From an uncultured Paraglaciecola sp. (GTDB lineage Bacteria > Pseudomonadota > Gammaproteobacteria > Enterobacterales > Alteromonadaceae), in assembly GCF_913058035.1 (NCBI RefSeq), contig NZ_CAJXPA010000025.1, forward strand, positions 1 to 34,825: a stretch of DNA of 34,825 nucleotides, given 5' to 3'. The translations under genes and the position numbers were made by a program. Position 1 is the first letter of the stretch, and the number at the start of each line of letters is the position of its first letter. This document shows, piece by piece, positions 4,788 to 11,542 of this stretch. The notes beneath the pieces were generated by a model that searched no databases, was not told the origin of the DNA, and was given only the letters and a program-made list of their open reading frames with translations.

Positions 4788-6662
4788 TTATATATGGTCG
4801 ACTGATTGTCCAGAGAAGGCGCTTTTGATCGATTGATCCATACGTTTCTGGGCAAATGTTTCGCTTAATTTATCTACTTGTTTGATAGCGGCATTGATCG
4901 CATCTTTGTCTGTGCCCTTAGCAAGCTCATTAAGCCTTGTAAGTCCGTCTTCTATCGCTTGTATTTCAGATGTTTCGAGCAGCGCTTTGCCGTCGGAATC
5001 TAATGCTCCTTGAAGATTTTCTTGCACTCTAGCCGCTTCAACTTGTTGTTCTTTGAGCATACGAGACTGCATATCATCTTGTGCGTTATCCATTGATGCT
5101 TTCAACATATCAGCGATTTCGCTATCTTCTAATCCGTATGAAGGCTTGACTTGAATTTCAGTATGTACGCCTGTGGACTTCTCCATGGCCTTAACATTTA
5201 AAAGTCCATCAGCATCTACTTGAAAGGTCACCCGAATGTGTGCAGCACCTGCAGCCATAGGTGGGATACCTTTTAAAGTAAATTTGGCTAGGGATCTGCA
5301 ATCCTTAACTAACTCACGTTCGCCCTGAACCACATGAACCATCATGGCAGTCTGACCGTCTTTAAAAGTGGTGAACTCTTGCGCTTTAGCAACCGGGATA
5401 GTGGTATTCCTATGTATCACTTTTTCAGTCAACCCCCCCATGGTTTCAATACCCAATGACAATGGCAACACATCCAGCAGTAACATATCGCTGTCAGGTT
5501 TGTTACCCACTAAAATATCAGCCTGAATGGCGGCACCAATTGCTACCACTTTGTCAGGATCAATTGAAGTAAGCGGGGTGCGCTCAAAAAACTCACCAAC
5601 TTGTTGGCAAACTAATGGTACACGGGTAGATCCCCCCACCATGACAACTTCAATTACTTGGTCTTTTACAAGTCCAGCGTCTTTTAACGCTCTGCGACAT
5701 GCACGTAAAGTATTCTTAACTAGGTGACTGATGAGTTTTTCAAATTGGTTGATACTGATCATCACCTCATGGTGTGTACCTGCATCATCATTAAATTGTA
5801 CTGTATGCACTGACTCATGGCTTAATGTTTCTTTAGCTTCTTTGGCCTTATCTAAAAGGATCCGATGCAAACTTTTTGATAAGTCTGTAGTTAATTCACT
5901 TTTTTGACGAATGTATTCTACCAATATGGCATCAAAATCATCGCCGCCAAGTGCAGAGTCTCCACCGGTAGAGAGCACTTCGAATACACCTTTACTTAAA
6001 CGCAAAATAGAAATATCGAAAGTACCACCACCTAGATCATAAACAGCAATAATACCTTCTTGAGATCCTTCTTGCTCTGCATCCAAACCATAAGCAACGG
6101 CCGCAGCAGTAGGTTCGTTAAGTAAACGTAATATCTTTAAACCTGCAAGGGCCGCAGCATCTTTTGTGCCTTGTCGTTGTGCATCATCAAAATAAGCGGG
6201 AACAGTAACAACCGCACCTTGTAATTCATCACCTAAAGTTTGTTCTGCGCGTTTTTTTAATTCACTCAATATTTTTGCTGATACTTGAACAGGGTTAACG
6301 TTACCCGATGTCACCTTCATCACTGGCGATGGAGAGTCAGTAAACTGATAAGGTAAATTTGGGTAAGCCGTTTGAATGTCTTTTACAGAACGGCCTAAAA
6401 AACGCTTAACTGACACAATGGTATTAATTGGGTCAATACTCGCCTGTTGTTTGGCTTCTTGTCCAATCACCTCGTCATCGATTAAATACCTAACTACAGA
6501 AGGTAACAAATGTCTACCTTGCGTGTCAGGTAATGTGAGTGCTTCACCACTGCGCACAGTTGCAACTAAAGAGTTGGTGGTACCTAGATCGATACCTACT
6601 GCTAATTTACGTTGATGAGGAACGGTGCTTTGACCGGGTTCAGATATTTGCAAAAATGCCAT
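4788..6662 (-). CDS. hscA: Fe-S assembly chaperone HscA (Hsp70 family)
   Basis: Specialised Hsp70 ATPase that acts with HscB on IscU to promote transfer of clusters to target proteins. The 624 aa compare with 616 in E. coli. The N-terminal ATPase domain has the phosphate-binding GIDLGTTNS (from residue 23), [15 protein letters not shown] and the second phosphate loop [22 protein letters not shown] is the adenosine motif. The [13 protein letters not shown] linker leads into the substrate-binding domain with [16 protein letters not shown] and a shorter C-terminal lid than DnaK. It lies 37 bp after hscB and 33 bp before fdx, the standard isc order, and has no GrpE/DnaJ partner here, as expected of HscA. 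Confidence 0.97.
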
Positions 6663-6699: not shown

Positions 6700-7227
6700 T
6701 TAAAAATCACTTAATATGTCTTCCTTCAACAAAATCTCAGACAACATTTTATAAGAAAATTTAAGTTGTCTAATAATATCAGCTGCGCTTTGTTCTGCCA
6801 CTGTTAGGTCACTTTCAAGAAAGTTTCGTAACTTAATTAAATCGCTCTTAATCGTCTGATTAATTTCGTCTTCTAATGACTCTAGGGCTCTCAAGGGATC
6901 AGCTTGCTCTGATATCTCGGATAACTCTTCTCGCCATTCCATTTGTTGCATCAGAAAAGCGGTGTCTTTTATAGTTTGTTGTTCATGTTGCAAATCAATA
7001 CCACGTAAACTTAAGAGGTATTCAGCTCTAGCCAAGGGAGATTTAAGTACTGAATAAGCATCATTTACTTGTGCATTTTTTTGAATTGCCACCAGCTTTT
7101 GTTGCTCGCTACCGCTAGCAAATCTATCTGGATGCGTTAAGCGCTGAAGCTGCTGGTAAGTTTGTGGCAATGCAGACAGGTCCACATCAAAAGAAATTGG
7201 AATATTAAAAAGTTCAAAATAATTCAT
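6700..7227 (-). CDS. hscB: Fe-S assembly co-chaperone HscB (J-protein)
   Basis: J-domain co-chaperone that brings IscU to HscA and stimulates its ATPase. The 175-aa protein has an N-terminal J domain with the essential HPD tripeptide at residues 32-34 (LTHPDRF) and a C-terminal helical bundle that in the family binds IscU; the bundle here is acidic (EEDINQT, ILLKEDILSDF). The length matches the family (E. coli 171). It sits between iscA (57 bp) and hscA (37 bp) on one strand, so it is almost surely co-transcribed. Confidence 0.96.
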   Translation of the reverse strand: MNYFELFNIPISFDVDLSALPQTYQQLQRLTHPDRFASGSEQQKLVAIQKNAQVNDAYSVLKSPLARAEYLLSLRGIDLQHEQQTIKDTAFLMQQMEWREELSEISEQADPLRALESLEDEINQTIKSDLIKLRNFLESDLTVAEQSAADIIRQLKFSYKMLSEILLKEDILSDF

Positions 7228-7284: not shown

Positions 7285-7608
7285 TCAAACATTAAAACTT
7301 TCGCCACAGCCGCACTCACCGTTTGCATTGGGGTTGGTAAATTGGAAACCCTCATTCAAGCCTTCTCTGGCAAAATCTAGATGGGTACCATCTAAATAAG
7401 CCAAACTTTTACCATCAATAATGATTTTTACACCATTATCTTCAAATAGTTTATCGTCGGCATTCACGCCGTCAACAAACTCGAGCACATAAGCTAAGCC
7501 AGAACAGCCAGTGGTTTTAACACCAAGACGCAACCCTAATCCAGATCCTCTATTTTCAAGAAATGTTTTAGCACGTAATGCTGCCGTATCAGATACAGTA
7601 ATTGCCAC
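7285..7608 (-). CDS. iscA: A-type Fe-S carrier IscA
   Basis: A-type carrier that accepts clusters from IscU, or holds iron, and passes clusters to apo-targets, especially [4Fe-4S] enzymes. The protein is 107 aa, like E. coli IscA. The three invariant cysteines are at 35 (TTGCSGLAY), 99 and 101 (GECGCGESF), the same numbers as in the E. coli protein. It follows iscU by 32 bp. IscA is distinguished from ErpA by its operon position and the ISC-type C-terminus; that part is context-based but strong. Confidence 0.96.
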
Positions 7609-7640: not shown

Positions 7641-8021
7641 TTAAACTTGACGGCTTTTATAATCTGCAACTGCTGCTTTTATGGCATCTTCAGCCAGAAT
7701 AGAGCAATGGATCTTTACTGGAGGCAAAGCTAACTCTTCAGCAATATCCATGTTGCTAATGGTAGAAGCTTCATCAATGGACTTTCCTTTGACCCATTCA
7801 GTAACTAATGAGCTCGAGGCAATAGCCGAACCGCAACCATAAGTTTTAAATTTAGCATCTTCGATAATACCATTCGCATCAATTTTTAATTGTAGCTTCA
7901 TTACATCACCACAAGCAGGTGCGCCGACCATGCCGGTTGCAATTGAAGGATCGTTCTTATCAAAACCACCGACGTTACGTGGATTTTCGTAGTGGTCTAT
8001 TACTTTTTCGCTATAAGCCAT
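7641..8021 (-). CDS. iscU: Fe-S cluster scaffold IscU
   Basis: Scaffold on which sulfur from IscS and iron are assembled into a cluster before handover by HscA/HscB. The 126 aa carry the three ligand cysteines at 37 (PACGDVMK), 63 (TYGCGSAIA) and 106 (IHCSILAED), the conserved Asp39, and the HscA-recognised LPPVK motif at residues 99-103. The N-terminal MAYSEKVIDHYENPRNVG is typical. It is separated from iscS by an unusually long 115-bp gap that contains a hairpin (8096-8122), so its expression may be set apart from iscRS. Confidence 0.98.
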   Translation of the reverse strand: MAYSEKVIDHYENPRNVGGFDKNDPSIATGMVGAPACGDVMKLQLKIDANGIIEDAKFKTYGCGSAIASSSLVTEWVKGKSIDEASTISNMDIAEELALPPVKIHCSILAEDAIKAAVADYKSRQV

Positions 8022-8136: not shown

Positions 8137-9360
8137 CTAGTGGTGAGCCCACTCTACTTTGCTTATGTCGATGCCTTCTTTGTACATATCCCAAAGTGGC
8201 GACATATCACGTAATTTATCTATGGCATTACGTATTACACCAATCACATAATCGATTTCAGCTTCAGTAGTAAAGCGTCCCGTAGTGAAACGGATAGAGC
8301 TATGTGCTAATTCGTCACTCAATCCTAACGCACGAAGCACGTATGAAGGCTCCAAGCTAGCAGATGTACAAGCAGAACCAGAAGACACAGCCATATCTTT
8401 CAGGGCCATAATTAAAGACTCGCCCTCAACGTAAGCAAAACTAACATTCAAATTACCTGCGATACGGCTTTCCATATCACCATTTAAATATACTGCTTCC
8501 ATATCTTTGATGCCGTTCCATAATTTGTTACGTAACATCATTAGACGTTCATTTTCAGCACCCATATCTTGTTTAGCAATCCGGAATGATTCGCCCATAC
8601 CGACTATTTGATGAGTTGCCATAGTACCAGAACGCATTCCACGTTCATGACCCCCACCGTGCATCTGCGCTTCCAGGCGTATGCGTGGCTTACGACGAAC
8701 AAACAAAGCTCCGATGCCTTTAGGACCATATGTTTTGTGGGCACAAAACGACATTAAATCGACTTTCATTGTTTGTAAATCGATGGGAACTTTACCAGTG
8801 CTTTGTGCCGCATCAACATGAAACAAAATTTTCCGTTCACGACATACTTCACCAATAGCGGCAATATCTTGGATAACACCAATTTCATTGTTTACATGCA
8901 TGATACTGACTAAAATAGTTTCAGGGCGAATGGCTGCAATTAGCTTGTCTAACAAGATTAAACCATTTGGTTCTGGATCCATGTAAGTGACTTCGTAACC
9001 TTCACGCTCTAGCTGGCGCATGGTGTCAAGCACGGCTTTATGCTCAGTCTTGAGAGTTATTAGGTGTTTGCCTTTTTTACCATAAAAATTAGCAGCACCT
9101 TTAATCGCAAGATTGTTGGATTCAGTCGCACCTGAAGTGAAAACAATTTCTCTTGGGTCAGCATTGACCAAATCAGCAATTTGGTTACGAGCAATATCGA
9201 CTGCTTCTTCTGCTACCCAGCCAAATTTGTGGGAACGAGATGCAGGATTACCGAATATGCCATCAGAAGTTAAGCAGTCTGCCATTTTGGCTGCTACACG
9301 AGGGTCGACTGGTGTAGTTGATGAATAATCCAGATAGATGGGAAGCTTTAATTCGCTCAT
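8137..9360 (-). CDS. iscS: Cysteine desulfurase IscS
   Basis: Pyridoxal-phosphate enzyme that converts cysteine to alanine and gives the sulfur, as a persulfide, to IscU and to tRNA thiolation pathways. The 407 aa match the family (E. coli 404). Visible are [12 protein letters not shown] at the N-terminus, TSGATESNN, the PLP lysine in [10 protein letters not shown] (about residue 208), and the flexible-loop active Cys in [10 protein letters not shown] (about 330). The C-terminus ([15 protein letters not shown]) keeps the IscU-docking end seen in IscS. It begins 11 bp after iscR. Confidence 0.98.
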
Positions 9361-9371
9361 TTTTTACTCCG

Positions 9372-9860
9372 CTAAAGCTGCAAACTGATAGAGATTTCGT
9401 TTGCTGCTAATTGATTAAGATGTTTATGTTTGTCTTGTCTTTCGGCTACTTGTTTCACATCATGCTGCAGCATAAGCTCGCCTAAAGTGATGCCATCTAA
9501 AAATATACTGATCCTGTCGCTAAGGCCTTCCCATAAATTATGGGTCAGACAACGTTCGCCACCTTGACAAGCTCCTTGGCCCTGACACTTAGTCGCGTCA
9601 ACAGACTCATTTACTGCTCGAATGACTTCACCAATCGATATTTCATTAGCTACGCGACCCAACTTGTAACCACCACCAGGACCGCGAACACTATTCACTA
9701 ACTTCTCTCTACGTAAACGAGAGAAAAGTTGTTCAAGATAGGACAAAGAAATTTCTTGACGCTCGGATATATCAGCTAAGGAGACAGGCCCACGTTGTGA
9801 ATGTAAAGACACATCCAACATAGCTGTCACTGCGTAACGACCTTTAGAAGTCAATTTCAT
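9372..9860 (-). CDS. iscR: Fe-S sensing Rrf2 regulator IscR
   Basis: Rrf2-family transcription factor that binds a [2Fe-2S] cluster. In the family the holo form represses the isc promoter, and both forms control other genes. I chose the ATG at 9858-9860, giving 162 aa and the canonical start [11 protein letters not shown]; an in-frame ATG 60 bp upstream would add 20 residues that the family lacks and would place the IscR operator inside the gene. The winged helix covers residues 1-60 with [13 protein letters not shown] as recognition helix, and the cluster ligands are Cys92, Cys98, Cys104 and His107, as in E. coli. Autoregulation is likely from the type-1 site just upstream. Confidence 0.97.
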
Positions 9861-9899
9861 TGTTATTAACCTATTACCAATACAGATAACAACAATTAC

Positions 9900-9924
9900 A
9901 TACCTGACTATTTTAGTCAAGTAT
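9900..9924 (-). promoter_or_regulatory. IscR type-1 operator of the isc promoter
   Basis: On the minus strand ATACTTGACTA, AAA, then TAGTCAGGTAT forms a 25-bp imperfect palindrome that fits the published type-1 IscR consensus (ATASYYGACT...AGTCRRSTAT) at every specified position. It lies 40 bp upstream of the iscR ATG. TTGACT inside it could be a -35 element, so holo-IscR would block polymerase directly. Confidence 0.88.
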
Positions 9925-9980
9925 TTAACCCTGTAGTTTAGTCAAGTATTTAACCTTGTGTTTTAGTCAAGTATTAGCTT
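9914..9980 (-). repeat. 25-bp-spaced IscR half-site repeats upstream of iscR
   Basis: The 11-bp half site TAGTCAAGTAT (plus strand) occurs at 9914-9924, 9939-9949 and 9964-9974, exactly 25 bp apart. The first two units match at 22 of 25 positions; the third is partial. The first copy is one arm of the IscR palindrome. The other two lack the opposite arm. They reach to 5 bp from the cysE stop. They may be extra IscR or polymerase contact sites, or a recent tandem duplication. Confidence 0.85.
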
Positions 9981-9984
9981 TGTG

Positions 9985-10794
9985 TTATATCTTGGGGTCG
10001 AAGGCTTCACTGACTTTTTTAATATCTTCCACATGCTCACCATCTGAGAAGTCTTCTAGCTCTAAAGTAGGTAATGATTTACCACAGACGTCACCACCCA
10101 TCTTATTAATTGCTAAACACATTTCTTCAACTTTTTTATCAACGAGATGAACATGATCCACCATCACCCCAATTGCGTGAGCTATTGGGTCAGGATTATC
10201 TGTTGCTACTGCATACGCATCAAAACCATACTTTTTTGCTATTTTTTGACGCTCACCGTCAGTTGGCGCTTCTGGTTTGTTCTGCTGGGCTACAACGCGG
10301 CCAGGAATACCTATTACCGTTGCGTTTTCTGGTACATCACGCACCACCACTGAGTTTGAACCTATTTTTGCGCCTTTGTGCATAGTAATTGGACCCAGTA
10401 CTTTTGCACCAGCACCAACCACCACGTTATCTTCCAAAGTAGGGTGCCGTTTACCTGCCGTCCAACTAGTACCACCCAGTGTGACGCCATGATACAAGGT
10501 CACATCGTTACCAATTTCTGCTGTTTCACCAATAACGACACCCATGCCGTGGTCGATAAAAAATCGTCGACCAAGTTTTGCACCAGGATGAATTTCAATG
10601 CCCGTTAACCAACGAGAAAAAGTAGAAATAGAACGTGCAAGCCATTGCCAGTTTGCTTTCCACAATCTATGGCTTAGACGGTGAAACCAAACCGCGTGCA
10701 AACCCGGATAATTAGTGACAACCTCCAAAGTATTGCGTGCGGCAGGGTCACGATGAAATACACTCTGAACATCTTCTTTCATTCTGCTGAACAT
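9985..10794 (-). CDS. cysE: Serine O-acetyltransferase
   Basis: Transfers acetyl from acetyl-CoA to L-serine, making O-acetylserine for cysteine synthesis; the family is feedback-inhibited by cysteine. The 269-aa protein has a short helical N-terminal part and then a left-handed beta-helix of hexapeptide repeats, with the family motifs [25 protein letters not shown] and [14 protein letters not shown] around residues 80-160. The catalytic Asp and His of the family are in FIDHG. It starts 7 bp after trmJ and ends just before the iscR promoter. Its place beside iscS fits a supply of cysteine for sulfur transfer. The N-terminal helical part is shorter than in the enterobacterial CysE form, so oligomeric state may differ; that is inference. 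Confidence 0.95.
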
Positions 10795-10801
10795 AATTAA
10801 C

Positions 10802-11542
10802 CTACTGCTCTCGGTTTTTGATATATTTGTCGACCGACGCCAAGATACCGCGCAATATATTCAGTTCTTGTGTCTCTGGACGTGCCCGATTATAGAGACG
10901 TCGTAATTTGGCTATTACCATACCGGGATGTTTGGCAATGATGAAATTCGTTTTAATGAGGGTTTGTTCCAAATGACTATAAAAACCCTCAAGATCCTCG
11001 ACAAGCGGATATTCAGTGTCTTCAGGATGATTTTCTGGGTGTTGGCTACGTGATAGATTTAAGTAAGCCATCCGAAGCTCATAACATAAAGTTTGAACAG
11101 CTGCTGCTAAGTTTAAAGAACTATAATCTGGATTAGCAGGAATACACACATGAAACTGACATAACTGCAGTTCATCGTTACTTAATCCATTATTTTCACG
11201 CCCGAATACCAAAGCAACTGGGTAATTAGGTAATTCACTAATCATCTTCTCACCACAGCCTCTTGGCTCTAACATCGGCCAAGATAATGTACGTGACCGA
11301 GCGCTGGTGCCGATCACTAAGCCACAACCAGCCACAGCTTCGGACAACGTACTTACAATCTTTGCATTAGCCAATACATCCCCAGCGCCTGCAGCTAGCG
11401 CAATGGACTTGCCATCTGGTGCAGAAACTGGATCAACCAATACCAACTGACTTAGTCCCATTGTTTTCATCGCTCTAGCTGCTGAACCAATGTTACCCGT
11501 ATGGGATGTGTTAACTAAAACGATGCGAATGTTTTCTAACAT
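10802..11542 (-). CDS. trmJ: tRNA (cytidine/uridine-2'-O-)-methyltransferase TrmJ
   Basis: SPOUT-class methyltransferase that 2'-O-methylates position 32 of the tRNA anticodon loop using S-adenosylmethionine. The 246 aa match E. coli TrmJ. The N-terminal [29 protein letters not shown] is characteristic, and the trefoil-knot SAM motifs [13 protein letters not shown] and [18 protein letters not shown] lie near residues 113-150. The C-terminal helical extension is that of TrmJ rather than TrmL. It is the first gene of the trmJ-cysE pair, divergent from suhB, as in many gammaproteobacteria. Confidence 0.96.

Follow-up and report, generated by a model that had tools for sequence, protein, structure and literature searches.

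Three tandem IscR type-1-like boxes spaced at 25 bp ahead of iscR in an uncultured Paraglaciecola sp.

Introduction

The iscR promoter of Escherichia coli K-12 carries two type-1 boxes (sites A and B), which score 24/25 and 22/25 against the consensus. Their positions relative to the ATG, -133 and -108, differ by exactly 25 bp. The left arm of the proximal box contains TTGACC, and TG-T-CAGACT is found at a 17-nt spacer from it. In PMC6599224, each of the two sites is said to be bound by IscR independently of the other, and a minor, nonconserved site C is also mentioned second-hand. A site C in the same 25-bp register is not supported, since the sequence one such step beyond the distal box scores 13/25. 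Moreover, PMC12594620 states that an oxidised or lost cluster weakens the binding of E. coli IscR to type-1 sites.

In Pseudomonas aeruginosa, the iscR promoter presents two abutting 25-bp boxes, a strong proximal one and a weak distal one. According to PMC6599224, site A (-67 to -43) and site B (-42 to -18) are arranged in tandem within one footprinted region (-67 to -18) and repress the promoter, IscR filling site B first and then site A. The role of the latter is described there as minor, its mutation raising the basal activity, otherwise 2.1 U/mg, to 2.9 U/mg (about 1.4-fold). By our own count, site A scores 17 and site B 20, against the 76% (i.e. 19) given for site B in PMC6599224.

The tandem 25-bp layout is already standard, and the third box is what differs in the locus described here. 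This locus was found in a stretch of 34,825 nucleotides (hereafter, the window) from an uncultured Paraglaciecola sp. Its iscR promoter shares the exact 25-bp register, the TTGAC-containing proximal left arm and the TG-preceded hexamer at a 17-nt spacer with E. coli K-12, and the strong proximal and probably weaker distal boxes with P. aeruginosa. However, three boxes are found in the window and two in each of those promoters, and the proximal box of P. aeruginosa (20/25) is less perfect than that of the window. Three boxes in exact 25-bp register are also present in the iscR promoter of Paraglaciecola polaris LMG 21857 (G009; L020, L039), which differs from the window in belonging to a separate clade and in its box scores (22, 22 and 24/25). 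A literature search covering titles and abstract openings returned no paper on a three-box 25-bp array; nevertheless, three sites are not claimed here as new in print, because PMC3899308 attributes a report of three IscR sites in E. coli to Giel 2013.

Methods

Boxes were scored against the published 25-bp type-1 palindrome ATASYYGACTRWWWYAGTCRRSTAT, the consensus being taken from PMC3899308 and PMC6599224. The comparison set comprised 208 iscR upstream stretches. Of 60 relatives, 58 had a match and supplied 59 stretches, one genome contributing two genes. A further 88 came from the 90 additional genomes of the class with a match (all but G515 and G523), and 61 from the 98 additional genomes of the family with a match, this last part being made up of best-scoring genomes plus a hand-picked 40 and not of a random draw. 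For the register test, the best box of each stretch was taken as the anchor in 179 of the 208 stretches, the 29 without a 20/25 box being dropped. The tree had 27 rows and was built from the 1900 bases of iscR and iscS that begin at the iscR ATG, leaving out the promoter. Finally, the middle box was compared with a hybrid of the proximal left and distal right parts and with a plain copy of the distal box in the window, G009, L056, L041 and L191, with L194 left out.

Results

Direct reading and a repeat search identified three 25-bp IscR type-1-like boxes, placed head to tail on the minus strand between cysE and iscR (U1, U2 and U3; Table 1). The whole array is 75 bp long (9900-9974), with no gaps between units, and immediately precedes the iscR gene of an iscRSUA-hscBA cluster, the minus-strand order being cysE-iscR-iscS-iscU-iscA-hscB-hscA. 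The encoded IscR keeps the cluster ligands C92, C98, C104 and H107, plus E43. In the repeat search, TTTTAGTCAAGTATT-like copies appeared at 9911, 9936 and 9961, with spacings of 25 and 25. All three units start with the left arm ATACTTGACT, which occurs exactly three times in the window, always inside the array, while 0.125 occurrences were expected from base composition. U3 matches the palindrome ATASYYGACTRWWWYAGTCRRSTAT at every position. The right arms of U1 and U2 keep 5 of 10 positions each, compared with 10 in U3 and 3.4 expected by composition, so the binding of IscR to these two boxes may be weak or absent.

An earlier note on this DNA, made from the sequence alone, had proposed an isc promoter with a near-ideal type-1 palindrome and further copies upstream at an exact 25-bp period, each containing TTGACT. 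The isc promoter region, the palindrome and the repeats were borne out, TTGACT being present in all three boxes. The extra copies, described there as single arms, have perfect left arms (10/10); their right arms are degenerate, and they are 25-bp boxes rather than clearly bare half sites.

Table 1. Positions of the boxes, the putative promoter elements and the genes around the array in the window
Feature	Positions	Strand	Remarks
cysE	9985..10794	-	upstream neighbour; stop codon ends 10 nt before U1
U1 (ATACTTGACTAAAACACAAGGTTAA)	9974-9950	-	distal type-1-like box, 20/25; left arm 10/10, right arm 5/10
U2 (ATACTTGACTAAACTACAGGGTTAA)	9949-9925	-	middle box, 19/25; left arm 10/10, right arm 5/10
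U3 (ATACTTGACTAAAATAGTCAGGTAT)	9924-9900	-	proximal box, 25/25 type-1 consensus; both arms 10/10; holds the putative -35
Putative -35 (TTGACT)	9915..9920	-	inside U3
Putative -10 (AATTGT)	9892..9897	-	3/6 matches; TGT stands before it (9900-9898), as in an extended -10 (TGn)
iscR	9375..9860	-	ATG at 9860; above the TIGR02010 cut-off, below the NF008110 cut-off
iscS	8140..9360	-	
iscU	7644..8021	-	
iscA	7288..7608	-	
hscB	6703..7227	-	
hscA	4791..6662	-	

The possibility that the array is an assembly artefact was judged unlikely, given that the three units differ in sequence and that the array is only 75 bp long; the assembly consists of 348 contigs, with a listed contamination of 5.48%. U3 was also considered as a terminator (minus strand, 9924-9900) and rejected, the stem being the IscR palindrome and the sequence after it GTAATTGTTG. 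An Rfam search of 9000-11000 matched no family. As for the boundary with cysE, in the relatives L003, L005, L006 and L008 the final base of the stop codon doubles as the opening base of the distal IscR box, and the array of the window begins 10 nt past the stop.

Elsewhere in the genome, ATASYYGACTRWWWYAGTCRRSTAT-type palindromes with up to three mismatches were found in three places, one of them upstream of erpA and another upstream of nfuA. None had a 25-bp neighbour above 13/25, i.e. these boxes were single. The 23/25 type-1 palindrome L044 (G000:C30:22829-22853) lies in 3-kb surroundings without a listed ORF of at least 80 aa and without an Rfam match.

Regarding the promoter itself, the proximal TTGACT is followed, after a 17-nt spacer, by AATTGT, which matches TATAAT at only three of six positions and is preceded by TGT, a geometry common to relatives. 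Of the three boxes, only the promoter-proximal U3 is followed by a -10-like hexamer at this spacing. Because this -10 is poor, the promoter assignment leans on the relatives: among the 93 arrays with at least two boxes, the hexamer placed 17 nt after the proximal TTGAC had both A2 and T6 in 69, compared with at most 30 arrays at any of the other 17 offsets tried (-4 to +13), and TG was found at the box end in 77. The mean TATAAT match over the 93 arrays was 3.10/6 at the chosen place, hardly above the value three bases upstream (3.06). A generic sigma-70 scan listed one site (10223-10195) and none on the array. With a start placed near 9885, U3 would extend from about -39 to -15, U2 from -64 to -40 and U1 from -89 to -65, the iscR sites of P. 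aeruginosa being three bases off these box positions.

At a cut-off of 20/25, no box was found in 29 of the 208 stretches, one in 90, two in 80 and three in 9, and 74 of the 98 neighbouring box pairs were exactly 25 bp apart. The 4160 stretches obtained by 20 rounds of mononucleotide shuffling held 9 boxes in all. At this cut-off the window counts as two boxes 50 bp apart, U2 being 19. In the register test, a box of at least 17/25 appeared at -25 from the anchor in 73 of 179 stretches and at +25 in 20 of 175, compared with 95 of 22868 places (0.4%) at other offsets. Exact-register runs at the 17/25 cut-off had one box in 86 stretches, two in 88 and three in 5, the last being those of the window, G009, G052, and G157 and G130, which belong to one genus.

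All 22 Paraglaciecola genomes searched had boxes in the 25-bp register, two in 20 of them and three in 2. Among the 76 other upstream stretches of the family, 57 were in exact register (two boxes in 55 and three in 2), the remaining 19 having one box, while the 110 stretches from the order and class had two boxes in 13, three in 1, one in 67 and none in 29. The box pair is general among close relatives and a minority with distance, and the E. coli-type consensus may fit the distant ones less well. The earlier note had left the presence of the repeats in related genomes to be checked: the 25-bp pair is kept throughout the genus (22/22), but the third copy is not (2/22). Furthermore, its view that the regular spacing is unlike that of E. 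coli had to be abandoned, as the E. coli K-12 pair is also exactly 25 bp apart and the P. aeruginosa sites abut likewise (PMC6599224).

Three-box runs outside the genus were found in L056, L191, L194 and L041. A strict triple TTGACT pattern, too strict for a census, gave two matches in 395 family genomes, namely the window and G009. A GTDB-wide pattern scan returned seven stretches, including L039 (P. polaris) and L041, the latter recognised by eye as a three-box iscR promoter; the other five, also judged by eye, were set aside as looking like unrelated simple or tandem repeats. In L041:5753-5811 (JACZXW010000051.1, a Proteobacteria MAG), all the boxes of this iscR promoter look like nearly full palindromes. 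A different three-box layout, in which a 25-bp pair is accompanied by a separate 20-24/25 box starting 51-56 bp above the distal box of the pair, was observed in 14 of the 76 other family upstreams (L052, L053, L054, L057, L195, L196, L198, L207, L208, L215, L216, L222, L223 and L224).

In the iscR-iscS tree, the window and G009, the genomes of the genus with three boxes, fell in separate supported clades, and the sister of the window, L008, had two boxes, the starred branches forcing two changes. U1 was identical to the distal box of L008 at 24 of 25 positions (by eye), which suggests that U2 is probably the extra copy. Tandem duplication of an ancestral two-box operator, perhaps by unequal crossing-over or slippage between near-identical boxes, is the probable source of the third box. 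The differences of the middle box from the hybrid and from the plain distal copy were 2 and 3 in the window, 0 and 1 in G009, 4 and 7 in L191, 4 and 4 in L056, and 7 and 7 in L041 (6 from the opposite hybrid). Because the hybrid gains one position in the window and G009 and none in L056 and L041, a crossing-over hybrid as the manner of duplication is suggested at most.

Discussion

We consider it likely, judging from the sequence, that the array is an ordinary operator for autorepression of isc by holo-IscR, in which U3 would block RNA polymerase and U1 and U2 would be weaker auxiliary sites, the extra box being the result of a probable tandem duplication. [2Fe-2S]-IscR bound to U3, which overlaps the putative -35 and ends at the putative extended -10, would keep RNA polymerase off, and its binding to U3 would be lost when clusters are scarce or oxidised, leading to derepression of the isc operon. 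U2 and U1, which continue U3 upstream in the standard 25-bp register, would probably be weaker holo-IscR sites filled after U3, and their filling would make the basal expression slightly lower or the response sharper. Both boxes (19 and 20, respectively) exceed the score of the footprinted low-affinity site A of P. aeruginosa (17) and are close to that of site B. The graded repression raised in the earlier note is possible, the parallel being the filling of site B before site A in P. aeruginosa. The data show the box sequences, their register and conservation, the ligand residues of IscR and the promoter geometry of the relatives, while we infer the binding of IscR, the order of filling, the start site, the size of the effect and the manner of duplication. 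A third site need not help, because the two E. coli sites are said to take up IscR without depending on each other (PMC6599224).

It is also possible, though on the doubtful side, that the extra box is a neutral leftover of duplication without measurable effect and that the whole function falls to U3, perhaps together with a single upstream box. Such a leftover would agree with the sporadic occurrence of the third box in the genus, with the weak right arms of U1 and U2, and with the shift of only about 1.4-fold caused by mutation of site A in P. aeruginosa (PMC6599224). However, the left arms are intact in all three boxes, an upstream box is kept in every genome of the genus, and three-box runs also appear outside it, all of which speak against a neutral leftover.

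A more far-reaching proposal, which we regard as rather unlikely, is that box number at the isc promoter acts as an evolvable dial, the near-identity of the 25-bp boxes letting unequal crossing-over or slippage add further boxes repeatedly, each of them shifting the Fe-S set point or the steepness of the response. If so, each added box would extend the occupancy of holo-IscR upstream, and several separate lineages have an added box.

The alternative start points of the earlier note, for which each TTGACT would be a working -35, are very improbable. TTGACT is indeed found in all three boxes, but the copies in U1 and U2 are followed at 17 nt by ACTTGA (1/6 to TATAAT), because at 25-bp intervals the following box occupies this place, and the best hexamer at spacers of 15-19 reaches 3/6 (TTGACT, spacer 19). 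The hexamer of U3 likewise matches at 3/6, but it is accompanied by TG and conserved in relatives. Titration of IscR away from other targets, also put forward in that note, is hardly credible even with three boxes at one locus, as a single chromosomal locus has room for no more than three dimers, here on the promoter itself, which is little in view of general knowledge of repressor numbers, and no evidence for it was found.

The autorepression operator proposed here is mostly ordinary and departs only slightly from a known control element, i.e. the standard tandem type-1 isc operator with one extra box. E. coli, P. aeruginosa and most of the Alteromonadaceae-like relatives examined have the 25-bp head-to-tail register in their isc promoters, and the number of boxes varies on top of it. 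The sister species with two and three boxes (L008 and the window, respectively) offer a natural comparison for the role of auxiliary IscR sites.
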